Assembly: GCA_004362315.1 (NCBI GenBank)
Contig: SNWL01000003.1
Coordinates: forward strand, 1,426,001-1,490,000
From: Mycobacterium sp. BK086
GTDB lineage: Bacteria > Actinomycetota > Actinomycetes > Mycobacteriales > Mycobacteriaceae
DNA length: 64,000 nucleotides
Reading direction: 5' to 3'
This document shows, piece after piece, positions 10,416 through 51,508 of this stretch. A program made the translations under genes and the position numbers. Below the pieces are notes generated by a model. That model made no database searches. It had not been told where the DNA came from and saw only the letters and a program-made list of their open reading frames with translations. Every line of letters starts with the position of its first letter. Position 1 is the first letter of the stretch.

Positions 10416-10711
10416 GTCCGGACAACTACCTGTACCTGTCGGCGTTGTTGTTCACGATCGGTGCCGCGGGAGTGTTGTTGCGGCGCAACGCGATCGTGAT
10501 GTTCATGTGCGTGGAGCTGATGTTGAATGCCTGCAATCTGGCGTTCGTGACGTTCTCCCGCATGCACGGCCATCTCGACGGTCAGGTGGTCGCCTTCTTC
10601 ACCATGGTGGTGGCCGCCTGCGAAGTCGTGGTCGGCCTGGCGATCATCATGACCATCTTCCGCACCCGACGCTCCGCCAACGTCGACGACGCTCACCTGC
10701 TGCGGCACTGA
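10412..10711 (+). CDS. nuoK: NADH-quinone oxidoreductase subunit K
   Basis: The 99-aa membrane subunit has three helices and the two conserved membrane glutamates used in proton translocation, one in [10 protein letters not shown] and one in [10 protein letters not shown]. The length is exactly the family norm. It starts at ATG 10412 inside the nuoJ end and overlaps nuoL by one base. Confidence 0.96.
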
Positions 10712-30903: not shown

Positions 30904-32115
30904 ATGAAGTTCGCCCAGTCGAGCAGGTTGTCCAACCTGTCGCACGAAACCCCGGGGGCGATCACCGAAGAGGTGGCCCGGCTGGAATCGGGTGGACACT
31001 CAGTCTTGCGACTGGATGCGGGTGATCCCTATCAGTTCGGCTTCCAGGCACCGGCCGAGCTCGTTCGCGAGATCGCCGACACCTTGACGAATTCGGCGGG
31101 TTACACCTCGCCCAAGGGGTTGCTGTCGGCACGGCGCGCGGTCGTGCAGTACTACTCATCGCGCGGGGTCGCGGATGTCGACGTCGAGAACGTGTTCCTG
31201 GGCAACGGCGCCGCCGAATTGATCACGATGGCGATGACGGCGCTACTCGAAGACCGCGACGAAGTCCTGGTGCCCGCTCCCGACTTCCCGGTGTGGACCG
31301 CGGCGGTCAACGTCAACGGCGGTCGGGCCGTGCACTACCGGTGCGACGAGTCCTCGGACTGGTACCCCGACCTTGCGGACATCGCGGCGAAGGTGACCGC
31401 ACGAACTCGCGCGATCGTGATCATCAACCCCAACAATCCGACGGGCGCGGTGTACCCGCCCGAGGTGCTGACCGGCATCCTGGAGATCGCGCGGGAGCAC
31501 AACCTCATCGTCTGCTCGGATGAGATCTACGACAAGATCCTCTATGACGACGCCGTGCATACGGTGACCGCGGCGCTGGCGCCGGATCTGCTATGCCTGA
31601 CGTTCAACGGATTGTCCAAGGCCTACCGCTGCGCCGGTTTTCGCGCCGGCTGGCTTGCGGTGTCCGGGCCGACCGATCACGCGACCAGCTACCTCGGCGG
31701 GTTGACCACCGTGGCCGGGTTGCGTCGCTGTGCGAATGTACCTGCCCAGCAGGCGATTCGGGTCGCACTTGACGCCGATGCGTCGGGCTGCGACCTGACG
31801 TTGCCCGCCGACCGACTCCTCGCACAGCGCGACCGCGCCTGGGCGGCACTGAACGCGATACCCGGTGTCTCGTGTGTCAAGCCCAAAGGCGCGCTGTACG
31901 CCTTCCCGAAGATCGACCTGCGGCTGTATCCGATCCGCGACGACGAGCAGTTCGTCCTCGATCTGCTGCTGCAGGAGAAGATCCACATCATCCCCGGAAC
32001 GGGCCTCGGTTGGCCTGAGCCCGACCACATTCGGATCGTGACCCTGCCGCAGGCCGACGAACTGGAATCGGCCATCGAGCGCATCGGGCATTTCCTGGCG
32101 ACCTATCGCCAGTGA
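30904..32115 (+). CDS. PLP-dependent class I aminotransferase (AspC/AlaA-like)
   Basis: The 403-aa fold-type I aminotransferase has NPNNPTG at 175-181, DEIYDKIL at 206-213 and the PLP lysine K239 in NGLSKAYRCAGFRAGW. It closely resembles the mycobacterial enzyme annotated aspC (Rv0337c), which is of the alanine/aspartate-pyruvate type, and may be a paralogue. The ATG at 30904 follows GAAAGGAA. The stop directly abuts the stop of the P450 gene on the other strand. It may supply or remove a 2-oxo acid for the adjacent TPP enzyme operon; that is inference. Confidence 0.88.
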   Translation: MKFAQSSRLSNLSHETPGAITEEVARLESGGHSVLRLDAGDPYQFGFQAPAELVREIADTLTNSAGYTSPKGLLSARRAVVQYYSSRGVADVDVENVFLGNGAAELITMAMTALLEDRDEVLVPAPDFPVWTAAVNVNGGRAVHYRCDESSDWYPDLADIAAKVTARTRAIVIINPNNPTGAVYPPEVLTGILEIAREHNLIVCSDEIYDKILYDDAVHTVTAALAPDLLCLTFNGLSKAYRCAGFRAGWLAVSGPTDHATSYLGGLTTVAGLRRCANVPAQQAIRVALDADASGCDLTLPADRLLAQRDRAWAALNAIPGVSCVKPKGALYAFPKIDLRLYPIRDDEQFVLDLLLQEKIHIIPGTGLGWPEPDHIRIVTLPQADELESAIERIGHFLATYRQ

Positions 32116-33411
32116 CTAGCGCCGCGCGATCACTTCCAGCGCGATCTCGCGGCTGGGCTTGGTGGCGATGCCGCGGGGCACCGCACGAGGTGGCTTCCCC
32201 TGCTCGTGAGACCGCAGGTCAAGGGTTTTCATGATGGTGCCGATCGACACCGCCAGCTCACTGTGCGCGAAGGTCGCACCGATACAACGTCGGTACCCGC
32301 CCCCGAATGGCGCGTACTGAAACGGCGACGGCTTGGGGCCGAGGAACCGCTCGGGGTTGAAGGTCGTGGGATCGGTCCATATGTCCGGATTGAAATGCAA
32401 TGCGGGAAGCGCGATTCCGACCACGTCGCCCGCTGAGCAGGCGACGCCGGCGACGGTGAGCGGGGCGGTGAGCCTGCGCAACACGATCGGTACCGTCGGA
32501 TGGACCCGCAATGTCTCCTGGATAACCGCACCGAGATACGGCAGGGTGGCGATGTCCGCAGGCGTGGCCGCGGACGCCAGTTCGTCGATCACCCGGACCC
32601 GGATGCCGTCGTCGCGATGGATGTGGTGCAGTGCCCAGGCCAAGGACGTCGAACTGGTTTCGTGTCCGGCGGCCAGCATCGTCCGCAGCTGATCGCGCAG
32701 AACGTCGTCACCGAGTACGTTGCCTTCGTCATCGGTCGCGTCCAGAATCAGGCCGAGCACATCGCTGCCGTGTTCGCCGCTGCCCCTTCGCTCGTCGATC
32801 TGCTCGGACAACAGCCGGTCCAGTTGAGCGCGGAAGGCAACCAGCCGGGCCCAGGGCCCGCGCCCGGCGACATCACGGCGCAGCCACGGCACCAGCATCA
32901 GCATCGCGCTGCCGGAGCGTAGCAATTGCGTTGTCACCCGCGAGTATTCACTGCGACGGGCGCGATCCGTCACCCCGAACACGACGCGGATGACGACGTC
33001 CAAGGTGATGTTCTGGGCGGCCTCGCCGACGAGTAACCGATCACCCGGTCCCAGCGTGGCGATCTGGTCACACGCGGCCTCGGCGATCAGGTCGACGTAG
33101 TGGCGCATGAGCTCACCGCGGAACGGGGGCGTCAGGACGCTTCGGGCCCGTCGATGTGCCTCGCCGGACAGCAGGATCAGCGAGTTCGGTCCGACGACGG
33201 GTTCGATCGGGTTGGGCAGCGGGGCACGACACTGTGCGCTTGGAGCCGTGAGGATGTCCCGCGCACCCTCGGCGGTCGCAAAGAACAGGACTTCGCCGAG
33301 CCCGGGAAATCGCACAGGGAAAGGTTTTTGGTCAGATGCGTGACGCCGGAAGAATCCTTCTGGGTCGGCACCGGCCCAGGCCGCGCGGCCCAGTGCCGCA
33401 AGCGCGCTCAC
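32116..33411 (-). CDS. Cytochrome P450 (last gene of lipid-type biosynthetic operon)
   Basis: The 431-aa P450 has I-helix AAGHETSS, K-helix ETLR and the heme loop FGGGYRRCIG with Cys at about 376. It would hydroxylate or otherwise oxidise a substrate using ferredoxin encoded elsewhere. It starts at GTG 33411, overlapping the methyltransferase stop by 4 nt (GTGA). It is the ninth and last gene of the operon that begins at 42687, so a tailoring role on the operon product is likely. Confidence 0.92.
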   Translation of the reverse strand: MSALAALGRAAWAGADPEGFFRRHASDQKPFPVRFPGLGEVLFFATAEGARDILTAPSAQCRAPLPNPIEPVVGPNSLILLSGEAHRRARSVLTPPFRGELMRHYVDLIAEAACDQIATLGPGDRLLVGEAAQNITLDVVIRVVFGVTDRARRSEYSRVTTQLLRSGSAMLMLVPWLRRDVAGRGPWARLVAFRAQLDRLLSEQIDERRGSGEHGSDVLGLILDATDDEGNVLGDDVLRDQLRTMLAAGHETSSTSLAWALHHIHRDDGIRVRVIDELASAATPADIATLPYLGAVIQETLRVHPTVPIVLRRLTAPLTVAGVACSAGDVVGIALPALHFNPDIWTDPTTFNPERFLGPKPSPFQYAPFGGGYRRCIGATFAHSELAVSIGTIMKTLDLRSHEQGKPPRAVPRGIATKPSREIALEVIARR

Positions 33412-34136
33412 GTCCGCCTCGACGCCACGACGATCTGGTTACGGCCCAGCCTGCTGATCTCGAGACCGATCGCCGGATCGGCGAGGGCGCGAAATGCCGA
33501 GGGGCTGTATGCGCGTAGCGAACTGATCAGACCGTCGTGAGCGAACGGCAGGAACACGAACGGCAGCATCGACGCCAACCGGAGCAGGTGTACCGGGGCG
33601 GGCGGCCGGTATAGGTCACAGACGAGCAGCCTGTCCGCCACCCGGGTGCCCTCGGTCAACACCCGGGCAGCCTGGGCCGGCCGCAGGTGATGAAACGAGA
33701 GGGCAAACAGCGCCAGGTCATAGGAGCCGTCGGCCGCGTCGATGTCGGTGGCGTCGACGCGGCGCACGACAGCGCGAGGATGGCTGCCCAGGTCGCCGGC
33801 GGCGATGTGCGACACCGATACCGGGTCGATGTCGGTGACCGTGACGTGGGCGTTCGGGTGCGTTTTCAGCAGAGCTCGGGACAGCGCACCGTGACCCGCT
33901 CCGAGTTCCAGGATCTTCGGGGTGGGGATGTCCGCGACCAGTGGCAGGGCCCGGGCGGCGAGGTGATCGTGATCGCGCAGGATTCGGCCCATCCAGTCGA
34001 GCGACCAGATCACCTGCCGCTTGACGCGGTCGCTGACATCGTCTCGGTCCAGGTATTCCGGACGATCGGTCTGAAGACGTCGATCCAGCCACGACGCGTC
34101 GAACCCGCCGCGCGGCATGGTGGCAATGTCCATCAT
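33408..34136 (-). CDS. SAM-dependent methyltransferase
   Basis: The 242-aa class I methyltransferase has motif I ILELGAGHG at about residues 75-83, an acidic residue at the end of strand 2 (VTVTDIDP) and LALFALSFHHL as the post-II region. The substrate atom is unknown. A hydrophobic stretch, LASMLPFVFLPFA, near residue 190 may contact a lipid or membrane. The ATG at 34136 overlaps the O-methyltransferase stop (ATGA). Two methyltransferases in one operon imply at least two methylations or two alternative acceptors. Confidence 0.85.
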   Translation of the reverse strand: MMDIATMPRGGFDASWLDRRLQTDRPEYLDRDDVSDRVKRQVIWSLDWMGRILRDHDHLAARALPLVADIPTPKILELGAGHGALSRALLKTHPNAHVTVTDIDPVSVSHIAAGDLGSHPRAVVRRVDATDIDAADGSYDLALFALSFHHLRPAQAARVLTEGTRVADRLLVCDLYRPPAPVHLLRLASMLPFVFLPFAHDGLISSLRAYSPSAFRALADPAIGLEISRLGRNQIVVASRRT

Positions 34137-35251
34137 GGGCCCACCCAGCTTGGCGACACTTCGTCGGCAACCGCCTCGACCACACTGAGCGGTGAGGCGG
34201 TCGGCACCACCCGGGTCATCCGGAACCCGGCTTGCGCCAACAGCTTCCGGTACTCATCGGCTGACCGCTCGCGGGAGCCGAGGTTCAGCAACATTTCCAG
34301 GTCCACCCAGTTCTCCGGACCGTCGCGGCCGTTCTCGCGCACGACCATCTCGACGAGCAGCACCGTGGTGCCCGGCCGGGCCGCCGCCCGAACATTGCGC
34401 AAGATCTGCAGCGCCTTGTCGTCCGGCCAGTCGTGGATGATGTTCTTCAGCAGGTAAGCATCACCCCCGCCGGGAACCTGATCGAAGAACGACCCTTCGA
34501 CGATCCGCACACGGTCGGCGACGTGGTTGGCGCTCAACAACTCTGGTGCGCCCGCGACGACCCGCGGCACATCGTAGAGCACGCCGTCGGATCCGGGTGT
34601 CGCACCGAGGATCGCGGCCAGCATCGCACCCTGTCCCCCACCGACGTCGACGATCGTGCGATGTGTCGAGAAGTCATAGCTGGCCACCACGACGGCCAGC
34701 GTCATCTGGGCAAGGCTGGTCATCGTCTGGTCGAAGAGGTCGGCATGGTCGGGGATGTGGATGAGATAGTCGAACCCTTCCATGCCGCGCAGTGCGGGCA
34801 CGATCGACTCACCTGTTCGCACCGAGTCGGTGAGCAGCGTCCAGCGTTCACGCTGTTCTTGGGAACCCTGGAACAGAGCCGCTCCCTTCAGCGAGATCGG
34901 CGCGTCGGAACGGAGGGTCGCGGCAAGGGAATTCAGTGCGTAGCGACCGTCGCGGCGGCGACGGAAGATTCCGCGGCCGATCAGCGCCCGCATCAACCGG
35001 CGCAGCGCGTCGGAGTCGGCACCCACCCGGGCAGCCAGCTCATCGATCGACAGTGGTCCGTCCGCAAGCGCATCGGCGATACCGAGCTGAGCGGCCGTCG
35101 TGATCGCCTGCGCGGGCCACCCGGATACGACCAGCTCCATCATGGCCATGGGTGCGGGCAGCATGCGTTGGTGGAGCAGCAGTAGGTGATGCCGAGTCCA
35201 CTCGACTCCGCGGGCGAGCCAGGCGGGCGGCACCTTGGCGGCCTTAGGCAT
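34133..35251 (-). CDS. O-methyltransferase (COMT/tetracenomycin type)
   Basis: The 372-aa protein has a winged-helix dimerisation domain (AAQLGIADALADGPLSIDELA...) followed by a SAM domain with VDVGGGQGAMLAAIL. It carries the catalytic His pattern IIHDWPDDKA found in caffeate- and polyketide-type O-methyltransferases, so a hydroxyl or enol is the expected acceptor. The N-terminal extension of about 30 residues is basic. It overlaps the MMPL gene by 8 nt and the next methyltransferase by 4 nt. Confidence 0.9.
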   Translation of the reverse strand: MPKAAKVPPAWLARGVEWTRHHLLLLHQRMLPAPMAMMELVVSGWPAQAITTAAQLGIADALADGPLSIDELAARVGADSDALRRLMRALIGRGIFRRRRDGRYALNSLAATLRSDAPISLKGAALFQGSQEQRERWTLLTDSVRTGESIVPALRGMEGFDYLIHIPDHADLFDQTMTSLAQMTLAVVVASYDFSTHRTIVDVGGGQGAMLAAILGATPGSDGVLYDVPRVVAGAPELLSANHVADRVRIVEGSFFDQVPGGGDAYLLKNIIHDWPDDKALQILRNVRAAARPGTTVLLVEMVVRENGRDGPENWVDLEMLLNLGSRERSADEYRKLLAQAGFRMTRVVPTASPLSVVEAVADEVSPSWVGP

Positions 35252-37454
35252 GGGGTGCCTCCCGGATTCCGACCCGTTGATGTAGCCGAACGAGTGATGC
35301 CGGTGCCCACCAATTCAATCGGCCCATCAGGTGCATGAACGCCGGAACCAGCAGTACCCGCACGAGGGTGGCGTCGGCCACGATCGCCAGCGTCAATCCG
35401 ACACCCAGCATCCGTAGGAACGACACCTGTGCACCGGACAGTGCCGCGAAGGTGATGGCCATGATCAGTGCGGCGGCGGTGATCACCCGCGCGGTGCGGG
35501 CCAGTCCCAGCGCGACACTGGTGTCGTTGTCGGCGGCGGACTTACCGCTCGCCAGCCAGAATTCGCGGATCCGCGATACCAGGAAGACCTCGTAGTCCAT
35601 CGACAGTCCGAACGCGATGCAGAACAGCAGCACGGGGATGCTGATCGCCAGGGTTCCGGTCGACGTGGTGCCCAAGGCACCGAGGTTGCCGTCCTGGAAG
35701 ATCCACACCAGCGCACCGAATGCGGCGGAGAGCGAAAGAACATTGAGTAGCAACGCTTTCAGCGGCACCACGACGCTTCCGGTCATCAGGAACAGCAGCG
35801 CGAACGTGACGACCGCGATGATCGCGAGGACCATCCACAGCCGGGATCCGATGGCGCCGGCGGTATCCCGGTTGATCTGCGGGGTGCCGCCGATGAGCAC
35901 CTGCCGGCCCGCGGGCGCGGGAACCGCCTGCAGCAGGTCGAGCTGACTCTCGGATGCGTGCGAATACAGCGGTGCGGTGCTGGTGACGGTGAGGAACGCG
36001 CTGCCGTTCGTGACGGCGGTCGCAGCCGTCGGCGGACCCACGGCCGCGCCCTTGACGAAGGTGACGCCGGGCGACGAAACGGACGACACGGCGGGCACCT
36101 CCGACAGTGCCGCGGCGTAGGTATCGAGTTCTGCCGCACTGACGTTCTTGACATCCGGTATCACGATGGTCAGATTCCTGGCCAGGTCGGCGGCGAACTC
36201 GGTGCGCAGCTGGTCGCCGACCACGTGCGCCGAACTCGACGTCGGCAGCACCCGGTCGTCTGGGACTCCCCAGTTGGCGCCGAGGAACGGGGCGCCGAGC
36301 ACCGCCAGAAGCGCGACGATCAACACCGAAACAGGTACCGCCCTGCGCATCGAGAACATGGCCAGCCGATACCACGGGCTCGCCTCCACCGGACGTACTG
36401 CCGCGACCGGACGCCGCAACCAGCGGCGCAGATCCAGCGAGTCCAGCCGGTCACCGAGCAACACGATCGCCGCAGGTGTCACGAAAACCGCAGCGAGAGA
36501 AGCAAATGCGACCACGGCGACACCCGCATAACCGAACGACTTGAGGGCATAGATCGGGAACAACACCATCGCCGCCATCGACAGCGCGACCGTCATCGCG
36601 GAGAACAACACCGTCCGGCCAGCCGAGACCATGGTGTGCCTGAGCGCGTCGTCGCGTCCGGCACCGGCCGCCAGTTCGTCGCGGAACCGGCTCAACAGGA
36701 GCAGCGTGTAATCAATGGCCAGCGCCAGCCCAAGAGCCACAGCGAGATTGAGCGCGAAGATCGAGACATCGGTGGCGAACGTGACCACGTGCAGCACGGC
36801 CATCGCGCCGAAGATCGCGACGGCGCCCACCGCCAGCGGTAACGAGGCCGCGACCAAACCCCCGAACACCCAGACCAGAACCAGGAAGCTGAGCGGAATC
36901 GCGACGCCCTCCATGATCTTCAGGTCTTTCTCGCTCTGCTCGGTGATCTGCAGCATCATGGCCGCCTCACCACCGGCCCGCACGGTCACGCCGTCGCGAT
37001 CGTGAACCACCTTGCGCATCAATACCCCGGCGTTCTTGGGCGCGCCGTTGTCGCCGCCGGTGATGCCCGCCACGATCAGGCCTGTCGTGCCGTCCTTACT
37101 GATCAACGACGCGGCCGCCGACGGCGGAGCGGTCCACGGTGAGCTCACCGTCGCCACGGTGGACGCCTGGCTCAGCGTCTGCACGATCTCGGTGCCCACC
37201 GCCCGCGCCGCGGCGGCATTCGCGCCGTCCGGCGAGCTGACGGTGATCAGCAGCGGCATGTCTCCTTGCCCGAACGTGCTCGCCAGCACACTCCTCGCCT
37301 GCGAGGACTGCGCGCCCGGATCGGTCAGTCCACCCGCGGAAAGCTTGCCGGCGACCGGAACACCGAACGCCGCCATAGCGACCAGCACCAGCACCGCGAT
37401 CGCAATCATCCGCCGAGGAGCGCGAATCGCGAGTGCCGCGATACCCGCTAACAC
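35244..37454 (-). CDS. MMPL/RND-family transporter (MmpL-like)
   Basis: The 736-aa inner-membrane protein has two RND halves, each with a first helix, a large periplasmic loop and a helix bundle. The proton-relay Asp-Tyr pairs are in LALAIDYTLLLLSRFRDE (D about 248) and FGLSMDYEVFLVSRIREF (D about 620). It is shorter than the large lipid MmpLs (about 950-1,000 aa) and lacks their long second loop and tail. I start at GTG 37454, which overlaps the acyl-AMP ligase stop by 7 nt; the 82 upstream codons are a shadow of that gene. It probably exports the operon product. Confidence 0.9.
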   Translation of the reverse strand: MLAGIAALAIRAPRRMIAIAVLVLVAMAAFGVPVAGKLSAGGLTDPGAQSSQARSVLASTFGQGDMPLLITVSSPDGANAAAARAVGTEIVQTLSQASTVATVSSPWTAPPSAAASLISKDGTTGLIVAGITGGDNGAPKNAGVLMRKVVHDRDGVTVRAGGEAAMMLQITEQSEKDLKIMEGVAIPLSFLVLVWVFGGLVAASLPLAVGAVAIFGAMAVLHVVTFATDVSIFALNLAVALGLALAIDYTLLLLSRFRDELAAGAGRDDALRHTMVSAGRTVLFSAMTVALSMAAMVLFPIYALKSFGYAGVAVVAFASLAAVFVTPAAIVLLGDRLDSLDLRRWLRRPVAAVRPVEASPWYRLAMFSMRRAVPVSVLIVALLAVLGAPFLGANWGVPDDRVLPTSSSAHVVGDQLRTEFAADLARNLTIVIPDVKNVSAAELDTYAAALSEVPAVSSVSSPGVTFVKGAAVGPPTAATAVTNGSAFLTVTSTAPLYSHASESQLDLLQAVPAPAGRQVLIGGTPQINRDTAGAIGSRLWMVLAIIAVVTFALLFLMTGSVVVPLKALLLNVLSLSAAFGALVWIFQDGNLGALGTTSTGTLAISIPVLLFCIAFGLSMDYEVFLVSRIREFWLASGKSAADNDTSVALGLARTARVITAAALIMAITFAALSGAQVSFLRMLGVGLTLAIVADATLVRVLLVPAFMHLMGRLNWWAPASLVRLHQRVGIREAPHA

Positions 37455-39058
37455 GGCGACAGCGTTCCCGCCAGCCACTGTGTGCGCGCCTCGAGCCGGC
37501 GAAGTTTTCCGCTGGACGTGCGCGGCAACGTGCCGGGTGCCACCAGCTCGACGTGTCCGACGGCGATACCCGTCCGCTGCAGCACGCTGGACGCCACGTC
37601 TGCTGCCAGGTTCTCGGGGGCGTCGGCTGTGGTCTCGACGATCATGGCCAGTGCCTCGTCGTCCGCATCGACGGGCACGTAGGCGACGGCCACCGCGCAT
37701 CCTGTGCGAACACCGGTCAGCCCGTCGAGTGCGGCCTCGAAATCCTGGGGTGCGTGGTTCGCACCCCGGATGATGATGGTCTCCTTGCTGCGTCCGCAGA
37801 CGAAAAGCTCACCGCCATGGACGAATCCGAGATCACCACAGTCGAGCCAGCCGTCGTGCAGCACCTGAGCGGTCAGGTCTGCGCGACCGAAGTAGCCGGC
37901 CATCACACTCGGCCCCCGGACGAAGATGTGGCCCACCTCGCCGGCGGGCAGCGGACGGGAGTCCTCAGCACGAATCTCGACCTCGACCCCCGCCAGGGGG
38001 CGGCCGGTGCTCACCAGCTCCTTGTTGTCGCGCTCGACGACGCTGAACTGACTGCCCGCCGGCTTGAACGTCACCGCCAACGATGCTTCGGCCAGCCCGT
38101 AGACGGGAGTGAACGCCTGCCCGTCGAATCCCCATGCACCGAAGCGTTCGCTGAAGCGGCGCTGAACCTCGGCACTGGTCAGCTCGGCACCGTTCAGGCA
38201 CAACCGCCACGAACTCAGGTCCACGCCGTCAAGATCCTCGTCGCGAATCCGCTTCAGGCACAAGCCGAATGCGAAATTGGGTGCGGCGGTGATCGTGCCG
38301 CGGTGTCTGGAGATGGCGCGCAGCCAGGCGGCCGGAACGGCCAAAAACAGTTCGGGTGGCAACAACACCAGGGGGCGGGGCAGGTAGAACGCCGTCAACA
38401 GATTTCCGATCAACCCCATGTCGTGATAGAGCGGCAACCAGGTGACACCCACCTGCTCGGGCATGCCCGCGGTGACGAAGTAGTCGGCGATCGCCGCCAT
38501 GTTGTAGAGCAGGTTGTCGTGGGTGAGGGCGACGGGTTTGGGGTCATGGGTGGTGCCCGACGAGAATTGGATGAGTGCGAGATCGGTGGGCGCGATCACG
38601 ACATCGTCGCCTTCAGCGCCACTGAGCTCTACTGTTGTGACGCAACGGCTCTCGGACGACTCGAGCAGTGGCCGGATCCGATCTTCAGTCACCACAAGGG
38701 TGGCTTGAACCGCACGCAACATCGCCGCGGTCCGGTGCCGATACTCGTCGAGCTTGCCCAGCCGCACCGGAGGGTACATCGGCACGGGAATGGCCCCCGC
38801 GTACAGCACACCGAAGAAACTGGCGACGAACTCCGGCCCGGTCGGCAACACCAGCGCGACACGATCGCCGGTCTTCACTCCGGCGGCGCGCAGACCCCCG
38901 GCGAGTGCGCGCGCCTGGCGGTGGATTTCGGTAAACGAGACTGCGGTGTCGTTCTCGTTGCGGTCGACGAAGAACAGTTTCTGCTCGCTGTGCGCTGCGG
39001 CGTCGAGCATCTCGGTCAACGTCGCGAACTTGGGCCGTATCGCCGGGGCTGCGGTCAC
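37448..39058 (-). CDS. Fatty acyl-AMP ligase (FAAL, FadD-type)
   Basis: The 536-aa adenylating enzyme has the A3/P-loop FSSGTTHDPKPVALTH (165-180). Its DPKPV form is typical of FAALs rather than acyl-CoA ligases (GxPKG). TWLPLYHDMGLIGN and YGLAEASLAVTF also fit FAALs, and the C-terminal LPRTSSGKLRR supplies the catalytic Lys. FAALs load a fatty acid as acyl-AMP onto an acyl carrier protein, and the carrier gene is immediately upstream with a 4-nt GTGA overlap. Chain length cannot be predicted here. Confidence 0.92.
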   Translation of the reverse strand: MTAAPAIRPKFATLTEMLDAAAHSEQKLFFVDRNENDTAVSFTEIHRQARALAGGLRAAGVKTGDRVALVLPTGPEFVASFFGVLYAGAIPVPMYPPVRLGKLDEYRHRTAAMLRAVQATLVVTEDRIRPLLESSESRCVTTVELSGAEGDDVVIAPTDLALIQFSSGTTHDPKPVALTHDNLLYNMAAIADYFVTAGMPEQVGVTWLPLYHDMGLIGNLLTAFYLPRPLVLLPPELFLAVPAAWLRAISRHRGTITAAPNFAFGLCLKRIRDEDLDGVDLSSWRLCLNGAELTSAEVQRRFSERFGAWGFDGQAFTPVYGLAEASLAVTFKPAGSQFSVVERDNKELVSTGRPLAGVEVEIRAEDSRPLPAGEVGHIFVRGPSVMAGYFGRADLTAQVLHDGWLDCGDLGFVHGGELFVCGRSKETIIIRGANHAPQDFEAALDGLTGVRTGCAVAVAYVPVDADDEALAMIVETTADAPENLAADVASSVLQRTGIAVGHVELVAPGTLPRTSSGKLRRLEARTQWLAGTLSPC

Positions 39059-39315
39059 GTTCGCTCCTGGATGCGGCGCAACACCAACTGGGCCAGCTCA
39101 CCGACGGTGGTCAGGTCGTCGTCGTCCTGCGCGTCCAGATCGATGTCGTAGCGCGCCTCGATCCGGAAGACCAGCGACAGCACCTGCGCTGAGTCCAGTC
39201 CCGCATCCTGAAGGCCGGATTCGGGCGTGAGAGTGACTGCAGTGCTGTCGGTTTCGGATTCGATGAACCCGATGATCTCCTGGGTGAGCCCCGCCAACGT
39301 GACCTGCTGTGTCAT
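39055..39315 (-). CDS. Acyl carrier protein
   Basis: The 86-aa carrier has the phosphopantetheine site GLDSAQVLSLVF, with Ser42 as the attachment residue, and an acidic helix II/III region (DLDAQDDDDLTTVG). I prefer ATG 39315, which overlaps the KAS III stop as ATGA; a GTG at 39333 would add six residues. It is the probable acceptor of the acyl group from the neighbouring FAAL and the donor for the KAS III-like enzyme. Confidence 0.92.
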   Translation of the reverse strand: MTQQVTLAGLTQEIIGFIESETDSTAVTLTPESGLQDAGLDSAQVLSLVFRIEARYDIDLDAQDDDDLTTVGELAQLVLRRIQERT

Positions 39316-40346
39316 TTCCGGGTTCCGCCCCACTGGATGGCCGCGGCACCCGCGAAGTCGCCGGCGTGCGCGAACCCGGCCATCATCACGACGTCACCGG
39401 CGCCGATCTGGCCATCGCGGATGGCGGCCTCGAAGTTCACCGGGATCGCCACCGCGAACAAATTGCCGCACTCGTGGAAGGTATCGCGATGCCGCTCAGG
39501 CGAAATGTCAAGCGCCTCATTCCAGTTGCGTAGCAACAGGCGATTGGGCTGATTGGTGACCAGCAGGTCGAGGTCGCCCGGTTTCACCCCGATGCGATCG
39601 CAGACCGCACGCACCACCGCGGGAACCTGCCGGTTGCCGCGGGCGAGCACCTTGATGATCTTGCCCTCGTTGAACCCGACATAGCCCTGCCCCGGCCCGG
39701 CCTCCCACCACCGCCGCGCCGGATCTGCGGCCAAGGTCATGTCGGTGGCATTCTCACCGAAGTAGCGGCATTCGACATCGAGCACGGGCGAGCTGTCTGA
39801 CAACGTCACCAAGCCGACCGCCGCACCGTCGCCGGGAACCGACGCCTGAGCCAGCTTGCGTACCTGGTCCTGTTCGAAGATCTTGCCCGCGGCGTTCTGC
39901 GCGACCGCAATCAGCGCGGTGCGCCCAGCGCCGCTCGTCAGTAGCTGGCGAGCGAGCTTGAGCATCAACACAAATGCCGCGCACCCGCCGTTGTGCACGT
40001 CGATGATCCACTCGGGGCTGATGCCGAGGCGCTTCGCGACCTCGCCACCCGCACCGAGGATCGGCAGATCGGGCAGCTGCGAGTGTGTCAGCAGCACATC
40101 GACCTCACTGAGCACATCGGCTCCGTGCCGCGCCGTCAGGTCCGCGACAGCGCGCTCGATCATGTCCACATTGGACTCGTCGTCGGCGGCATGATGGCGG
40201 AAATCCGGTGGCCGGAACATCGGGTTGTCGCGCAGGTCGTCGTTGTCGCTGTACTGCGTGTACCAGTCTGCGGCAACACGGTTTTCGGGCAGATATGTGG
40301 CGACGTCGATCAGGCTGACGGTGGGCTGGGAGCCGGCCGGGCTCAT
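39312..40346 (-). CDS. KAS III-like condensing enzyme with altered triad
   Basis: The 344-aa thiolase-fold protein is of the FabH family. The nucleophile is C122 in HNGGCAAF, and the third triad residue is N295 in ECGNLFAVAIP. The usual His in HQAN is replaced: the motif reads TNQPN, with N265 at the His position. Decarboxylative condensation normally needs that His, so this enzyme may act as an acyltransferase or use a different mechanism. ATGA overlaps join it to both neighbours. Confidence 0.88.
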   Translation of the reverse strand: MSPAGSQPTVSLIDVATYLPENRVAADWYTQYSDNDDLRDNPMFRPPDFRHHAADDESNVDMIERAVADLTARHGADVLSEVDVLLTHSQLPDLPILGAGGEVAKRLGISPEWIIDVHNGGCAAFVLMLKLARQLLTSGAGRTALIAVAQNAAGKIFEQDQVRKLAQASVPGDGAAVGLVTLSDSSPVLDVECRYFGENATDMTLAADPARRWWEAGPGQGYVGFNEGKIIKVLARGNRQVPAVVRAVCDRIGVKPGDLDLLVTNQPNRLLLRNWNEALDISPERHRDTFHECGNLFAVAIPVNFEAAIRDGQIGAGDVVMMAGFAHAGDFAGAAAIQWGGTRK

Positions 40347-41029
40347 GATGTCCGCATCCAGTCCGGCGTGACGGGCAGGCCGTTGCGGTGGCGGTATTCG
40401 GCAATCGCCTTGAGGTTCTTCAATTCCAGGAGATGACCCGCGCCGAACATCTCCCAGAAGTCACCCACCCAGACCGGGCGCTCCGGCGGAGCGGTCTCGG
40501 GATACGGATTGTCGTCGTAGAACGGATGGTGACAGTTGGTCCAGAGCACCACCGAACCGGGCTTGTTGAACACCACCTGGGCGTCCACCACGCGCATCAG
40601 ATAGATCATCCACAGGTGCCGGCCCTGATCCCAGGCGCAGTGATAGTCGACCGTGCGCGCCTCGCGGTTGGCGACGGTGCGGGTGTAGATCTCGGTTTCG
40701 CTGCCCAGCCGGTCGTAGGCCAGCCATAGCCCGGCCTCGTCCGTCGGGGTGAACCCACGCAGGCTGTAGGTCCATTCCTCCAGTGAGCGGGTGTCGGCCA
40801 GGTACTCGTACAGTTCGTCGGGCGGGCAGTCGATGAAATCGTTGACGGTGCAGTACTCGCCGAACACGTCGTCGTGGGGATAGACGGCGTGGATCATCTC
40901 CATCAGCACCGGGGTGGCCTTCTCCCTGGGCGAGGTCTCGATGCGCATCAGCCCGGGGATCGGCTCGTCGACGCCCCCAGTCCGGTGATTGTGGTGGGCG
41001 GTGATGTCCTCGAGCGCGGGCAGTGTCAT
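40343..41029 (-). CDS. Protein of unknown function in biosynthetic operon, possibly SRPBCC fold
   Basis: The 228-aa soluble protein is rich in Trp, Tyr and His. A central region (DCPPDELYEYLADTRSLEEW) resembles the start of SRPBCC/START-type ligand-binding or cyclase domains, and the C-terminus has FWEMFGAGHLLELKNL. I cannot assign it firmly. The ATG at 41029 overlaps the TPP-enzyme stop, and its own stop overlaps the KAS III start, so it is made together with them. A role as cyclase, aromatase or substrate-binding partner is inference. Confidence 0.7.
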   Translation of the reverse strand: MTLPALEDITAHHNHRTGGVDEPIPGLMRIETSPREKATPVLMEMIHAVYPHDDVFGEYCTVNDFIDCPPDELYEYLADTRSLEEWTYSLRGFTPTDEAGLWLAYDRLGSETEIYTRTVANREARTVDYHCAWDQGRHLWMIYLMRVVDAQVVFNKPGSVVLWTNCHHPFYDDNPYPETAPPERPVWVGDFWEMFGAGHLLELKNLKAIAEYRHRNGLPVTPDWMRTS

Positions 41030-42687
41030 CGGTTGTCCTTTTGATCGAGAAACGCAGTGAACGGCGGGATTTCGTCGGCCGAACATTCCACCGCAACCAC
41101 GGACGGGCCGTCGGCGTCCAGTGCGGCCTTGATCGCCACCCCCAGGTCACCGATGTCTGTGACGTCGGTCGACGGCAATGCCGGGAACATCGCGGCCAAT
41201 CCGGCCCCGAGCCGGCTGGGTCCGAATCGGTTGTAGCTGTAGCGGTCACCGTAAAACATCTGCTCGCGGGTGACGCACATCGCGTGGGCGTGGTTGTCGA
41301 ACAACACGAACGTCACCGGAAGCCGATGGTGCAGCGCGGTGTGAATGTCCATGCCGTGCATGAAGAACGATCCGTCACCGGCGATGACGACCGTGCGACG
41401 CCCGCGCGCGAACGTCATGCCGATGCCCGCGCCGAAGCTGTACCCCATGCCGCCCATACCCAGGGCCACCAGGAACCGGCCGTCGCGGCGGGCGGGCAGC
41501 CAGTGGATCGCGGCCGCGCCGACGTTTCCCGCGTCGACGACGATGTCGGTGCCCGCCGGCAGCAGCTCGTCGAGTGCGAGCATCGCCTCCCGGTACCGAA
41601 CCCCCGGCCCGGCATGCCGCGGCGGTGCCAGCTCGCCGCGGCTGACGTCGGCGATCGGCTCAGGGCGTTCCACATCGCCGGCCAGCGCGTCGGCGAGCAG
41701 GTTCAGCGCGGCACGCAGGTCGTCGCTCTCGACATGCGTGGCAGGCACATACGGCGGTGCTGAGCCGATCGACCCTACGGGCAGCCGTTCCAGGTCGAGG
41801 CCCGCCCGGGCCATCAGCGGCAGCCGAGTGCCCACCAGCAGGCACGCCGCGCTGTTGGCCAGCGCCACGCCCACCGCGGGATGGCCCATCACCCCCGCGA
41901 CACCCAGAGCTTCTGGAGCCACATCTTTCGCGTCGGGAACGGCGGCGATGCCCGCGCGCAGCACGGCCCGCAGGTTCTCCAGTTCGGTACGGGCATCGTC
42001 GCGGGCCACCTGGTCGCCGGCGATGATCGTCACCGGACCCTCCACGCCACGCAGCAGCTCGGCCAGCGCAGCGATGTCCCCGACCCGTCGCGGAGGCTCA
42101 TCAGCGAGGTCGGGTGACCCAACCTCGACCGATGCCTGCTGAATGTCCTTGGGCAGCAACAACACCGCGGGGCCGCCGAGGTGTGCCGCAGCCGCCAAGG
42201 CCTCGGGCAACGCGGTCATGATGTCGGCGGGGGTCAGCACCCGCCGGCAGAACACCGACACCGCCGCGAACAACGCCTCTCCGTCCAGCGCGCCGCCCCG
42301 GCCACTCGTGTCCTGGAACGATCCGTGGCCGTCTGCCGACGTCGGCGGCTGGCCGATCAGGGCCAGTACCGGCACCCGGCTGGCGAATGACTCCCCCAGC
42401 CCCGGGATGGTGTTGAGGGCTCCGCCCCCCGACGTCGCGACGACCACACCGATACCGCCCTCGGCACGGCTGTAGGCGTCGGCCATGGCCGCCGCGGAGA
42501 ACTCGTGCTTGGCGACCACCGCGGTGATATCTGGGCAGGCGTATGCGGCGTCGTAGAGGTCCTCGATGTTGGCGCCGTCGACACCGAACACATGATTGAC
42601 GCGCCGCCGTGCCAGGTGTTCGACGATGTAGTCGACTACTCGCGTGCGCCCAGCCCCTGCGCCGTTGGACTCAGAGCTGACCGGCAT
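41026..42687 (-). CDS. Thiamine pyrophosphate-dependent enzyme (acetolactate synthase/decarboxylase family)
   Basis: The 553-aa protein has the three-domain layout of TPP enzymes. The activating Glu is E62 in VVAKHEFSAAAMADAYSR. The TPP/Mg motif starts GDGSFFMHG and ends at LFDN 29 residues later. Whether it decarboxylates a 2-oxo acid, makes an acyloin or ligates two acyl units cannot be read from the sequence. The ATG at 42687 has only a weak ribosome site but is the first plausible start after the promoter region. It is the first gene of the nine-gene operon. Confidence 0.88.
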   Translation of the reverse strand: MPVSSESNGAGAGRTRVVDYIVEHLARRRVNHVFGVDGANIEDLYDAAYACPDITAVVAKHEFSAAAMADAYSRAEGGIGVVVATSGGGALNTIPGLGESFASRVPVLALIGQPPTSADGHGSFQDTSGRGGALDGEALFAAVSVFCRRVLTPADIMTALPEALAAAAHLGGPAVLLLPKDIQQASVEVGSPDLADEPPRRVGDIAALAELLRGVEGPVTIIAGDQVARDDARTELENLRAVLRAGIAAVPDAKDVAPEALGVAGVMGHPAVGVALANSAACLLVGTRLPLMARAGLDLERLPVGSIGSAPPYVPATHVESDDLRAALNLLADALAGDVERPEPIADVSRGELAPPRHAGPGVRYREAMLALDELLPAGTDIVVDAGNVGAAAIHWLPARRDGRFLVALGMGGMGYSFGAGIGMTFARGRRTVVIAGDGSFFMHGMDIHTALHHRLPVTFVLFDNHAHAMCVTREQMFYGDRYSYNRFGPSRLGAGLAAMFPALPSTDVTDIGDLGVAIKAALDADGPSVVAVECSADEIPPFTAFLDQKDNR

Positions 42688-43353: not shown

Positions 43354-44361
43354 TTGACCGCAGGTGTCCATGACGCGACTGCGGCGCAAGCAGCGACCGA
43401 CCCCGAAGGCATCGATCTTGCCTGCGTCGACCTCGACGCGACGATCACCACGAACGGCGAAATCGTCCCCGCCGAGACGCCGGTAGAGATCAGCCCCCAG
43501 CAGGAGCCCGAGCCGGTCGCACAAGCGTCGACCGGCCGGCAAGTCGCCGCGATACTAAGCAGACCGCTTAGGCATGTTGTCGGCCAAATGGATTCGTCGC
43601 TACAGACCCTGGGCCGTTTCTTCGGCCTGGGCGCTCAGGCGTTCGGCTTCCTCATCACGGACCTGATCCGGCTGCGCCACCCGTGGCGAGACACCATCAA
43701 CCAGGCCTGGTTCATCATCAGCGTCACCGCGATTCCGGCATTGCTGGTGTCGATCCCGTTCGGGGTGATCGTGGCGGTGCAGGTCGGCAACTTCATCCAG
43801 CAGGTCGGCGCGTCCTCGGTCTCGGGCGCCGCCGGCGGCCTCGGCGTCATCCGGCAGGGCGCGCCGATGGTGGCCGCGTTGCTGCTCGGCGGCGCAGCCG
43901 GCTCGGCGGTTGCGACGGATCTGGGCGCGCGCACCATCCGCGAAGAGGTCGACGCGCTGCGCGTGATGGGTGTCGACCCGGTCCAGCGACTGGTCACCCC
44001 GCGGCTGGCGGCGATCGTCTTCGTGGCGCCGGTGTTGTGCGCCTTCATCATCTTCATGGGACTCGCGGCGGGCTACGCGATCAACGTCGGCTTCCAGTCC
44101 GGCACGCCGGGAAGCTACATCGCCTCGTTCGCCTCGTTCGCCAACGTCAACGACGTCGTCGTCGCCATGATCAAGACCTGGTTGTTCGGCGTGGTCGTGA
44201 TCCTCGTGGCCTGTCAGCGCGGTCTCGAAGCCAAGGGCGGTGCGCGCGGTGTGGCCGACGCGGTCAACGCCTCGGTCGTCATCGGCGTGGTCGCGGTGTT
44301 CGTGCTCAACCTGATCATCACGCAGGGCGTCTCGATGTCGATGCCGCTGAGGATGGGCTAG
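43354..44361 (+). CDS. yrbEA: MlaE/YrbE-family permease A of an mce transporter
   Basis: The 335-aa ABC permease has about five to six membrane helices and the conserved LGARTIREEVDALRVMGVDP loop that contacts the ATPase. The N-terminal 60-80 residues are hydrophilic and acidic (Pro/Glu rich) and longer than in M. tuberculosis YrbE4A (about 254 aa). The rare TTG start is chosen from the strong ribosome site; ATG 43588 would remove the extension. The first gene of an eight-gene mce operon; the ATPase (MceG/Mkl) is encoded elsewhere. Confidence 0.9.
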   Translation: MTAGVHDATAAQAATDPEGIDLACVDLDATITTNGEIVPAETPVEISPQQEPEPVAQASTGRQVAAILSRPLRHVVGQMDSSLQTLGRFFGLGAQAFGFLITDLIRLRHPWRDTINQAWFIISVTAIPALLVSIPFGVIVAVQVGNFIQQVGASSVSGAAGGLGVIRQGAPMVAALLLGGAAGSAVATDLGARTIREEVDALRVMGVDPVQRLVTPRLAAIVFVAPVLCAFIIFMGLAAGYAINVGFQSGTPGSYIASFASFANVNDVVVAMIKTWLFGVVVILVACQRGLEAKGGARGVADAVNASVVIGVVAVFVLNLIITQGVSMSMPLRMG

Positions 44362-45222
44362 ATGGCGACTCCGTCACGCCATCTGCCCGGCGTCATCCGC
44401 GCTCCGCTGTGGATCGCCGACCAAGGCGACTCCGTCTTCCAGCGCCTCGGACATCAGGTCAGCTTCATCGCCCAGGTGCTCGGCGCGATCCCGCACACGC
44501 TCAAGCACTACCGGCACCAGACCGGGGTGCTGCTGGTCGACGTGATGTGGGGCAACGGGTCACTGATCGTCGGTGGCGGCACGATCGGCGTCCTGATCTT
44601 CATGGGTGCGGCCGTCGGCGGCTCGGTGGGCATCGAAGGCTACGGCGCGCTCGACATGGTCGGGATGGGCCCGCTGACCGGGTTCGTCTCCGCGTATGCC
44701 AACACCCGGGAGATGGCGCCGATGATCGCCGGCATCGGCTTCGCCGCGCAGGCGGGCTGCCGCATGACGGCCGAGATCGGCGCCATGCGGATCTCCGAGG
44801 AGATCGACGCGCTCGAGGCGCTGGGCATTCGGTCGATCCCGTTCGTGGTCACCACCCGCGTGATCGCCGGAATGCTGACCATCATCCCGCTCTACGTGGT
44901 GACGCTGGCGCTGAGCTACGTGTCCTGCGCACTGGTGGTCAACGTGATGCACGGACAGTCATCGGGCACCTACTACCACTACTTCGACTCGTTCATCCAG
45001 CCGTCCGATGTGGTGTTCTCGGTGCTCAAGGCTGTCATCTTCGTGACGCTGATCATCGCGATCCACGGCTATCAGGGCTACTACGCCGTCGGTGGCCCCG
45101 AAGGTGTCGGGCGGGCATCGGGACGGGCCATCCGGGCCAGCATCGTCACCGTGGTGGCCGCCGATATGGTGCTGACGCTGTTGTTCTGGGGCAACAGCCC
45201 CGGGATTCGGATCTCGGGATAG
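44362..45222 (+). CDS. yrbEB: MlaE/YrbE-family permease B of an mce transporter
   Basis: The 286-aa permease is partner to YrbEA, with multiple membrane helices and the loop AEIGAMRISEEIDALEALGIRSIPF. The ATG at 44362 follows the yrbEA stop with no gap. Together the two permeases would form the inner-membrane channel for lipid uptake. Confidence 0.93.
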   Translation: MATPSRHLPGVIRAPLWIADQGDSVFQRLGHQVSFIAQVLGAIPHTLKHYRHQTGVLLVDVMWGNGSLIVGGGTIGVLIFMGAAVGGSVGIEGYGALDMVGMGPLTGFVSAYANTREMAPMIAGIGFAAQAGCRMTAEIGAMRISEEIDALEALGIRSIPFVVTTRVIAGMLTIIPLYVVTLALSYVSCALVVNVMHGQSSGTYYHYFDSFIQPSDVVFSVLKAVIFVTLIIAIHGYQGYYAVGGPEGVGRASGRAIRASIVTVVAADMVLTLLFWGNSPGIRISG

Positions 45223-45225
45223 GGC

Positions 45226-46278
45226 ATGTTCGCATCAGCCGATCAAGGAGGGCGCAGGCCCAGTTCGCGCGCACTGCGAATCCGGGGCCTCATCGCCGCC
45301 GTGGTGCTGATCGTCTCGGGCACCGTGCTGTATCAGCTCGGCACCGGCGGCTACGCAAACACCTTCAAGCTGACGGTGATGGCCGACAAACTGGGCGAGG
45401 GTCTGACGCCGGGTGCCGAGGTGAAGTTTCGAGGCCTGACGATCGGTTCGGTGAAGACACTGCAGTCGGCCGGATTCAACAAGCAGAAGATCACCCTCGA
45501 ACTCGAGCCGAACCAGGCCGCGGCCCTGGCGGCCGACACGACGGCGAATTTCACGTCCTCCAACACCTTTGGGCTGGCCGCCGTCGAACTGACCAGCAGT
45601 GGGGCCGGCCCACGACTGGCCTCCAACCAGACGCTGGTGGTCGATACGAACGTGAAGTCGGCGTCCATCACCGGACTGCTGCGCCAAGGCCAGAAATTCG
45701 GCCGGATCATGGACTCCCCCGATATCGACCACATCATCGGAATCGTGCGCAAGCATGCCGACCTCACCGAGCCGGTCACCCGGTCCTACTTCGATCTGAT
45801 CAAGATGGTTACCGACTCCCAGAAAGTGCCTTTCTCACAGTCGCTTTCGGTGCTCGCCTCGGTGGTCAACGGTGTCAGCGACGCCGTCCCGCTCGTCAGC
45901 CTGGCCTATGACCTGCTCAACGGAATGGAGTTCCTGGCACACCCCGATGGTGTCGACCGGATGAACCTGATCATGAGCCAGTTGTCACAGCTGCTGTTCA
46001 CCGCGGACGGAATCTTCGCCAAGCACATGACCTGGCTGGTCCCGCTGTTCGGCGGAATCATGAGCGTCTTCGTGCCGTACGCGTATATGTACGGAAGCAT
46101 GTCGCCGGCCTACGACCGGATCTCGGGACTTCTGGACCGGACCAGTACGGCGTTCCCGATCATCAACGGCAAGGTCCGGCTGAATCTCGAACTCACCCTG
46201 GACACCATGCCGGGGCTGGCGGCGGCGCTGCCCGCGGAGGCTCCCGCGGCCGCGCCGTCGCAGGGTGGTGGCCGATGA
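45226..46278 (+). CDS. mceA: Mce-family protein A
   Basis: The 350-aa protein has an N-terminal membrane anchor (about residues 20-40), an MCE/MlaD beta domain (about 45-125, with PGAEVKFRGLTIGSVKTL) and a helical C-terminal domain. MceA-F proteins assemble a periplasmic hydrophobic tunnel for lipids. The ATG at 45226 is 3 nt after the yrbEB stop. I cannot say which numbered mce clade it belongs to. Confidence 0.92.
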   Translation: MFASADQGGRRPSSRALRIRGLIAAVVLIVSGTVLYQLGTGGYANTFKLTVMADKLGEGLTPGAEVKFRGLTIGSVKTLQSAGFNKQKITLELEPNQAAALAADTTANFTSSNTFGLAAVELTSSGAGPRLASNQTLVVDTNVKSASITGLLRQGQKFGRIMDSPDIDHIIGIVRKHADLTEPVTRSYFDLIKMVTDSQKVPFSQSLSVLASVVNGVSDAVPLVSLAYDLLNGMEFLAHPDGVDRMNLIMSQLSQLLFTADGIFAKHMTWLVPLFGGIMSVFVPYAYMYGSMSPAYDRISGLLDRTSTAFPIINGKVRLNLELTLDTMPGLAAALPAEAPAAAPSQGGGR

Positions 46279-47285
46279 GAAGCGTGACCAAATCCGTGTT
46301 CTGGCTGACGGTGTTCACCGCGGTCGCGGTGGTTTGTACGCTCATCGTGCTGACGGCGCTGCGCAGTCCGGTGACCGGGTCGCTGTCCCGCTACACGGCG
46401 ACGTTCTCCGACGTGTCGGGGCTCTATGTCGGTGACGACGTGCGTATCTCCGGGGTCCAGGTCGGCAAGGTGCAGACCATCCGGCTCGACGGGCGGGTCG
46501 CCAAGGTGGACTTCACCGCCCAGACCGATCATCCGGTGTACGCCAATACCGTTGCCGCCGTTCGCTATCAGACCCTGATCGGTCAGCGTTACGTGGAACT
46601 GGTCCAGCCGCCCAAGCCCGAAAACCGGCTGCCGGACGGCGGCACCATCCCGATCGGGCAGACGATCCCCTCGTTCGATGTCGCCAAGCTGTTCAACGGG
46701 TTTCAGCCGATGTTCCAGACCCTCGACCCCGCCCAGTTCAACCTGTTGGGCGAGAACCTGCTGCGGCTGATCCAGGGCGACGAGTCCGGCATCGGCCCGT
46801 TCCTGCACGACCTCGACGAGATCTCCAAGCTGGCTGTCGACCGCCAGGTCGTGCTGACCACCATGATCCGTAATCTCAGCGCGATCTCCCAGGACCTGGG
46901 CGGCAAGTCCGGGCAGCTGTTCCAGCTCATCTCCCAGCTCAACGTGGTGCTCGCGCAATTCGGTTCCAAGGCTGAGGAATTCCGCTCCGCCCTGGACAGC
47001 GGACTGCCGGTGCTGCGCAACACCACCCACGTGATGCAATATTTCGAGCGCACGTTCGACGGGACGACCGGTCCGCTCTTCGACCTGAGCAGCCGGATGT
47101 GGCCGCAGACCCCGACGATCATCGCCGGCCTGTCGCTGGCCCCGTCGCTGATCCAGGGCATGCGGAACTGGCTGGTTGACGAGGAACCCGCCACGCCGAC
47201 GTTCTCCTGCTCCCGCGGCGAAGTCACCCTGCCCGGGATCGGCGAGGTGTCCTTCGCACAGCAGAACCTGGTGGTGTGCCGCTAA
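46275..47285 (+). CDS. mceB: Mce-family protein B
   Basis: The 336-aa protein has an N-terminal transmembrane anchor, an MCE domain (YVGDDVRISGVQVGKVQTI) and a helical region. ATGA overlaps mceA. It ends with a short cysteine-containing segment: one Cys near residue 311 (TFSCSRGEV) and a penultimate Cys (VVCR). Confidence 0.93.
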   Translation: MRSVTKSVFWLTVFTAVAVVCTLIVLTALRSPVTGSLSRYTATFSDVSGLYVGDDVRISGVQVGKVQTIRLDGRVAKVDFTAQTDHPVYANTVAAVRYQTLIGQRYVELVQPPKPENRLPDGGTIPIGQTIPSFDVAKLFNGFQPMFQTLDPAQFNLLGENLLRLIQGDESGIGPFLHDLDEISKLAVDRQVVLTTMIRNLSAISQDLGGKSGQLFQLISQLNVVLAQFGSKAEEFRSALDSGLPVLRNTTHVMQYFERTFDGTTGPLFDLSSRMWPQTPTIIAGLSLAPSLIQGMRNWLVDEEPATPTFSCSRGEVTLPGIGEVSFAQQNLVVCR

Positions 47286-48325: not shown

Positions 48326-48326
48326 C

Positions 48327-51495: not shown

Positions 51496-51508
51496 GCGAG
51501 TGGCACCA

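Follow-up and report, generated by a model that had tools for sequence, protein, structure and literature searches.

What is made by the nine genes packed on the minus strand at positions 32116..42687 of the window, the whole 64,000-nucleotide stretch of the environmental mycobacterium Mycobacterium sp. BK086 that was analyzed (GCA_004362315.1, contig SNWL01000003.1, positions 1,426,001 to 1,490,000 of the forward strand)? A preliminary description had proposed a linear acyloin or 3-oxo lipid built by a thiamine diphosphate (ThDP, also TPP) enzyme and a ketoacyl synthase III (KAS III)-like enzyme, and had left one member of the operon as an unknown protein. The operon is read here, with a probability of roughly 0.68 judged from sequence comparison, as a bacterial carbazole-type biosynthesis with a fatty-acid loading module, working by the steps proposed below; on the best reading its product would be a 1-alkyl-2-methylcarbazole, similar to the lipocarbazoles, or a close aryl analogue, methylated and oxidized. 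In Streptomyces, a ThDP enzyme of the HKA synthase kind, a KAS III-like enzyme and a CqsB2-type cyclase define carbazole assembly (PMC7466098). As a CqsB2-type cyclase, an HKA-synthase-like ThDP enzyme and a KAS III-like enzyme are also found here, a linear acyloin or 3-oxo lipid is an unlikely product, and this part of the preliminary description is likely wrong.

Operon layout

The operon genes and two associated features are as follows.

41026..42687, minus strand: ThDP (TPP) enzyme; Pfam TPP_enzyme_N/M/C; best PDB match BbmA, 8xod/8x3x
40343..41029, minus strand: CqsB2-type ring-closing enzyme (P0008), earlier "unknown"; PDB CqsB2, 6ipv/6ipw
39312..40346, minus strand: KAS III-like condensing enzyme, in the putative role of CqsB1/NzsJ; Pfam ACP_syn_III and ACP_syn_III_C; PDB FabH, PqsC
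39055..39315, minus strand: acyl carrier protein (ACP) with DS motif (GLDSAQ); PP-binding, PF00550
37448..39058, minus strand: fatty acyl-AMP ligase (FAAL), predicted to load the ACP; AMP-binding and PF23024; PDB 3pbk
35244..37454, minus strand: MMPL transporter, start uncertain; PF03176
34133..35251, minus strand: O-methyltransferase (OMT) of the kind found in aromatic natural-product pathways; PF00891 and PF08100
33408..34136, minus strand: second S-adenosylmethionine-dependent methyltransferase (MT); PF13649
32116..33411, minus strand: cytochrome P450; PF00067
42671..42739, minus strand: 22-amino-acid leader open reading frame (ORF), overlapping the start of the ThDP gene; conserved in class A loci (defined below)
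30904..32115, plus strand: AlaA-type aminotransferase (P0011), convergent with the operon; PDB AlaA, 4cvq

All nine minus-strand ORFs are open, and the tight arrangement with overlaps of 4-8 nt given in the preliminary description is borne out. With the preferred starts the overlaps are 4 nt for P450/MT, MT/OMT, FAAL/ACP, ACP/KAS (ATG at 39315), KAS/cyclase and cyclase/TPP (ATG at 41029) and 8 nt for OMT/MMPL; that of MMPL/FAAL is 7 nt only if the MMPL gene starts at GTG 37454, with 37478 and 37409 as possible alternatives, and several other operon genes likewise have alternative start codons. The gene families named earlier are confirmed by Pfam matches, and the Pfam scan found no polyketide synthase (PKS) or nonribosomal peptide synthetase domains in the nine operon proteins, as had been stated. 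The earlier gene list was sound as far as it went but incomplete, lacking the leader ORF and the convergent aminotransferase.

Core enzymes

The protein formerly called unknown is a ring-closing enzyme of the CqsB2 type by PDB match, catalytic residues and Foldseek. It has no Pfam match at E 0.01, and its sole PDB sequence match, among hits with E up to 10, is CqsB2 (E 1.3e-46; 46% identity across the aligned part). CqsB2 acts as carbazole synthase in the carquinostatin pathway, and Glu105, Tyr144, Tyr172, His206 and Glu209 are its proposed mechanism residues (PMC7466098). At these five positions the window cyclase has D, Y, Y, H and E; four are identical, and the change of Glu105 to Asp is conservative. 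Among 117 family sequences Asp is found at position 105 in 114, Glu occurring only in L159, while Y144 is kept in 114, Y172 in 115, H206 in 116 and E209 in all 117. A Foldseek search with the predicted cyclase model, which is of low confidence (predicted local distance difference test score, pLDDT, 52.9), has CqsB2 as its top match (E 1.9e-12), and the sole NCBIfam match is ScyC, scytonemin cyclase/decarboxylase, below its cut-off (E 0.001).

For the ThDP enzyme, the best PDB sequences are BbmA (8xod/8x3x, E 2e-47) and CsmA (8x3z, E 4e-41), both described in their entries as "ThDP-dependent HKA synthase", with acetolactate synthases next at 1e-30. The predicted model, of moderate confidence (pLDDT 75.7), also retrieves the BbmA and CsmA HKA synthases first; kinship with HKA synthases is thus indicated by both sequence and fold, at family level only. 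The KAS III-like enzyme keeps Cys122 and Asn295 and has Asn265 where FabH has His, and NCBIfam FabH models match it below cut-off. In the catalytic columns of 120 family sequences this His is replaced by Asn in 119, L159 again being the exception. L159, a locus from another family of the class, serves here as a stand-in for the Cqs/Nzs triad, its cyclase being 72% identical to CqsB2. The residue counts were taken from the best hits in 129 (cyclase), 124 (KAS) and 124 (ThDP) loci; after removal of rows that were too short or had in-frame stops, 117 cyclase and 120 KAS sequences were kept, with the window included and CqsB2 uncounted. Only the cyclase and, as far as its family goes, the ThDP enzyme are shown by homology to belong to the CqsB/Nzs-type carbazole set; by analogy, the mycobacterial triad should work like the Cqs triad.

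Proposed pathway

In the proposed pathway, the FAAL would activate a free fatty acid and load it onto the ACP, from which the KAS III-like enzyme would take the acyl group onto Cys122 and then condense it with a keto acid, CO2 being lost. The cyclase would then close and aromatize the new ring to give a 1-alkyl-2-methyl-3,4-dioxygenated carbazole, to be followed by O-methylation, a second methylation and oxidation by the P450, after which the MMPL protein would carry the lipid-tailed product to the cell envelope. The scheme in PMC7466098 suggests that, in the pathways already described, ring carbon 1 derives from the acyl carbonyl. With a fatty acid as the source of the acyl group, a 1-alkyl carbazole would then result, its alkyl chain corresponding to the fatty acid minus the carboxyl carbon. 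As for function, envelope radical scavenging, similar to that of antioxidant carbazoles such as the lipocarbazoles, is offered as a guess. Many of these steps agree with the preliminary description: loading of the ACP by the FAAL, condensation of the KAS III type, a partner made by the TPP enzyme, methylation, oxidation and export through MMPL are all consistent with the families found.

The loading function is suggested by several matches, as the FAAL is nearer to fatty acyl-AMP ligases than to acyl-CoA ligases: its best PDB match is 3pbk, Fatty Acyl-Adenylate Ligase (E 1.5e-87), it has the PF23024 C-terminal domain, and its best NCBIfam model is NF006624, fatty acyl-AMP ligase (below cut-off), the second-best being named long-chain-fatty-acid--CoA ligase. 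The MmpL3 NCBIfam model matches the MMPL protein far below its cut-off. The best PDB match of the OMT is AlpH; next come an unnamed methyltransferase, CalO6 and MmcR. In L042 and L043 a lone cyclase gene is adjoined by an OMT gene whose product is 67% and 71% identical, respectively, to the window's OMT, which fits methylation of the cyclase product. In these two loci (L042, 9996-11779; L043, 8808-10635) the OMT gene directly follows the cyclase gene, and no ThDP or KAS matches are present in the fetched 20 kb. The four loci of class B, as well as L079 and L116, have P450s 57-60% identical to that of the window near the triad.

Comparison with known systems places the operon as a variant. In the Streptomyces Cqs, Nzs and chlCz systems (carquinostatin, neocarazostatin, carbazomycin) the acyl group is supplied as 3-hydroxybutyryl-ACP or acetyl-ACP, whereas here the FAAL would load a free fatty acid; the window operon further differs in having an MMPL exporter and no prenyltransferase among its genes, a Cys-Asn-Asn KAS, Asp for Glu105 in the cyclase and an AlaA-type aminotransferase. 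With the lipocarbazoles of Tsukamurella pseudospumae it shares the predicted carbazole core with a lipid side chain, the comparison being one of product type alone. The lipocarbazoles are 3-oxygenated (PMC7466098), and the window operon has an OMT, an MT and a P450. The loading and export cassette has a counterpart in L174 (9835-15436) and L178 (9423-14871), in which ACP, FAAL and MMPL genes of other mycobacteria surround a KAS-fold enzyme that is there chalcone-synthase-like (a type III PKS), no ThDP enzyme or cyclase match being found in the fetched 20 kb. This arrangement indicates that the cassette is modular and reused with KAS-fold enzymes. In L161, from another family of the class, a triad lies about 3 kb from a FAAL-like gene (14441-15973; 34% identity), a possible independent pairing.

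Distribution and locus classes

In the genus, 165 of the 248 genomes sampled from a larger group have a cyclase match. A family sample, which overlaps the former, has matches in 122 of its 351 genomes and in 16 of its 31 genera, and a class sample in 28 of its 394 genomes and in 6 of its 137 genera. In a scan of named genomes, the best 80 of 486 relatives are species of Mycobacterium, Mycolicibacterium and Mycolicibacter, together with metagenome-assembled genomes labeled Mycobacterium, Mycobacteriaceae or Actinomycetota. In three genomes of 3.2-3.3 Mb (G075, G089, G115) the cyclase matches are multiple and all weaker, with best E values between 1e-37 and 1e-43; these are probably decayed copies.

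For gene counts, loci were divided into classes A, B and C by a KAS identity of 83.4% and the presence of a FAAL gene; L042, L043, L091 and L098 are excluded from these counts as they have no usable KAS match, and loci are not equivalent to species, several having been fetched twice under two ids (e.g. L034/L052, L039/L062). The ThDP enzyme, cyclase and KAS occur together in 96 of the 100 loci L031-L130 (19 class A, 4 class B and 73 class C), in a near-constant order from which L117 differs. The triad is likewise present in 26 of 29 loci from other genera and families (L143-L171), being absent from L149, L162 and L168; the KAS gene of L148 lies about 5 kb from the rest.

A neighborhood comparison shows that the gene set of the window recurs in the 19 class A loci, with the ACP in 19, the FAAL in 18, the MMPL, OMT and P450 in 17 each and the MT in 15; L060 is cut by a contig end, and L038 and L061 lack the MT though otherwise complete. 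One class A operon, L032 (G172:C1:223001-243000), is without MMPL, OMT, MT and P450 genes and keeps those for the aminotransferase, FAAL, ACP, KAS, cyclase and ThDP enzyme.

The window genome has a second triad, the class C copy L031 (G000:C5:72001-91000, at 7993-12422), with an 81% identical cyclase and, in its surroundings, genes for a HisC/Pat-type aminotransferase, an extracytoplasmic function (ECF) sigma factor and MarR, as well as a promoter motif of the SigL type. Such SigL-linked triads, to which MAP4208-4211 of M. avium paratuberculosis would belong by order and annotation, have the same three core enzymes (those of L031 being 65-79% identical to the window's) together with a HisC/Pat-type aminotransferase and a SigL-type promoter and no FAAL or ACP; the window operon, conversely, possesses a FAAL and an ACP but neither that aminotransferase nor that promoter.

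In a KAS tree of 93 rows, from which a hand-made list of 27 near-duplicate loci had been removed, the 22 rows of class A and FAAL-bearing class B (L060 included) form one clade (100/99). L066 and L081, which have no FAAL, join this clade (100/99), and the remaining 43 rows of class C stand next to it (100/99). A further branch (99/98) sets apart the rows from other genera, and L159 is on a very long branch.

Aminotransferases

The P0011 aminotransferase beside the operon matches AlaA (4cvq) in the PDB with E 5.6e-155. Among the matches listed, which are ordered by E-value, its orthologues, of at least 76% identity, occur in 16 of the 248 genus genomes, the next value being 59%; the paralogue in its own genome is 57% identical. 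All 16 of these genomes also carry the operon's FAAL at 70% identity or more, including G172, the genome with the shortened operon L032. An AlaA-type gene is present in 17 of the 19 class A loci; L060 and L064, in which it is missing, are truncated on the side where it would lie. A HisC/Pat-type aminotransferase, in turn, is found in none of the 19 class A loci, in all 4 of class B and in all 73 of class C, where it directly follows the KAS gene in the displayed loci; the nearest PDB entry to the class C enzyme is 4r2n, "Putative phenylalanine aminotransferase". The two types seem to replace one another between classes, and the AlaA-type enzyme is probably part of the operon's pathway.

Regulation

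Within -120 to +40 of the ThDP gene, the motif TGAAC[C/T]-N16-CGT, presumably matching the SigL promoter consensus of M. tuberculosis, is seen in 65 of the 71 loci of class C, in none of the 18 of class A, in 1 of the 6 of class B (L066, which has no FAAL) and in 8 of the 27 from other genera; in random windows of the same loci it occurs in 11/2743 (C), 1/699 (A), 0/229 (B) and 7/1041 (other genera). For this count the classes were divided at KAS identities of 84% and 74%, so that L066 and also L060, a class A locus in its gene content, fall into class B. A looser pattern had given 59 hits in 125 upstream stretches of all classes, compared to 15 in 125 on the opposite strand and 61 in 2500 shuffles, and the tighter motif and the class split were chosen after this result. 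The pattern scan found no SigL-type promoter upstream of the window operon. In class A its place is taken by a conserved leader with a 22-amino-acid ORF, MASAVSGHVPGATALERHAGQL, a type shared by 15 of the 16 class A loci that were searched, with L064 as the exception; over codons 2-16 of 16 equal-length sequences (window included), 5, 6 and 12 positions are variable at the first, second and third codon position, respectively.

An ECF sigma gene lies near 66 of the 73 class C loci within the fetched stretch. It is taken as sigL from MAP4201 of M. avium paratuberculosis and from synteny with secY, which is presumed to mark the sigL neighborhood. MAP4208-4211, inferred to be a class C operon from gene order and annotation (ilvB for MAP4208, fabH for MAP4210 and pat for MAP4211; PMC2806251), lie a few genes from sigL and are upregulated with SigL-linked genes under a rhodanine compound (PMC2806251), and they are lower in a furA mutant (PMC4319475). 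MAP4208, up in acid-nitrosative multi-stress, has been treated as a gene of branched-chain synthesis, and MAP4211, down in THP-1 cells, as one of histidine synthesis (PMC3416667); for MAP4209, PMC2806251 and PMC4319475 give no M. tuberculosis homologue.

Alternative explanations

Several observations weigh against a carbazole pathway. The window cyclase has Asp for Glu105, and its structure model is poor (pLDDT 52.9); the window KAS has Asn in place of the His of FabH and L159 and is 26% identical to the KAS of L159; and the ThDP enzyme shares 34% identity with its L159 counterpart, its best NCBIfam models being acetolactate synthases (top score 179 bits, cut-off 538). The aminotransferase of class A is AlaA-like and not obviously one for tryptophan. 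The mycobacterial triad is a separate subfamily, and as such it may use another aryl unit. The same chemistry would then be performed on phenylpyruvate or 4-hydroxyphenylpyruvate, giving a naphthalene-type or other ring and no carbazole. The near-constant changes that set the subfamily apart (KAS His to Asn in 119/120, cyclase Glu105 to Asp in 114/117) and the low KAS and ThDP identities to L159 favor such a partner, as does the likeness of the class C aminotransferase to 4r2n; however, the aminotransferase proposed to make indole-3-pyruvate in the chlocarbazomycin cluster is also HisC-type (PMC10100901), and ring closure onto benzene would use a less nucleophilic carbon than indole C2, by general chemistry. 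Lipocarbazoles have a long lipid chain, and Tsukamurella is in the same family as the window organism. That lipocarbazoles come from this genus (reference in PMC7466098) also argues against a different aryl partner, which is considered unlikely.

The linear acyloin or 3-oxo lipid, made by the TPP enzyme and KAS and then methylated, oxidized and exported, with the unknown protein in a minor part, has every named enzyme class present; it is nonetheless improbable, as that protein is a conserved CqsB2-type cyclase with its catalytic residues kept and is found with the TPP enzyme and KAS in 96 of 100 loci. Ordinary metabolism, with a branched-chain acetolactate synthase, FabH and a histidine-type aminotransferase, is what the best NCBIfam models and the annotation of relatives would suggest, MAP4208, MAP4210 and MAP4211 being named ilvB, fabH and pat (PMC2806251) and MAP4208 and MAP4211 having been discussed accordingly (PMC3416667). 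Against this stand NCBIfam matches far below cut-off, HKA synthases as best PDB matches, a KAS without the His of FabH, linkage with a CqsB2-type cyclase and a SigL-type promoter in class C, and the explanation is highly improbable. OleA-type hydrocarbon and tetronate pathways, considered from general knowledge, were rejected, no family match pointing in their direction.

Wider implications

With the carbazole-type reading preferred, the statement in the preliminary description that the gene combination is unrecognized holds in that no description of a mycobacterial pathway was found, but not in that the set is recognizable as a carbazole-type variant. In the open-access literature, most subscription papers being outside the search, no paper was found that ties the triad to carbazole making in mycobacteria; the carbazole gene clusters found are from Streptomyces (PMC7466098, PMC10100901), and the Tsukamurella carbazoles are given without genes in the portions of PMC7466098 consulted. 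Core machinery of this kind is a common, largely SigL-linked mycobacterial trait, also present in relatives, and annotation of the triad as amino-acid and fatty-acid metabolism has led expression studies to discuss its genes as such.

A broader proposal, tentative and put at somewhat below even odds, is that around two in three mycobacterial genomes, and one in two of the genera sampled in the family, have an unrecognized ring-forming alkaloid pathway (the triad and an aromatic aminotransferase), mostly SigL-controlled in mycobacteria and misnamed ilvB-fabH-hisC/pat, which would make envelope lipid-aryl antioxidants; the window operon would be a SigL-free branch that gained a loading and export cassette, and the Cys-Asn-Asn KAS a new enzyme subfamily. 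Should the carbazole-type reading be right, mycobacteria would have a new kind of envelope metabolite, whose structure prediction is clear and quickly testable; the sigma factor SigL would acquire a chemical output; and the three enzymes would form a system in which the acyl chain can vary.

Neighboring genes

Two scans of 61 genomes each found no clean empty site, i.e. STK and yrbE-like flanks joined in an operon-free relative. A divergent gene run lies at 43354-52270 on the plus strand of the window, and in 13 of the 19 class A loci a close homologue of its first gene lies next to the operon; the run is presumably a yrbE/mce operon, which it resembles.

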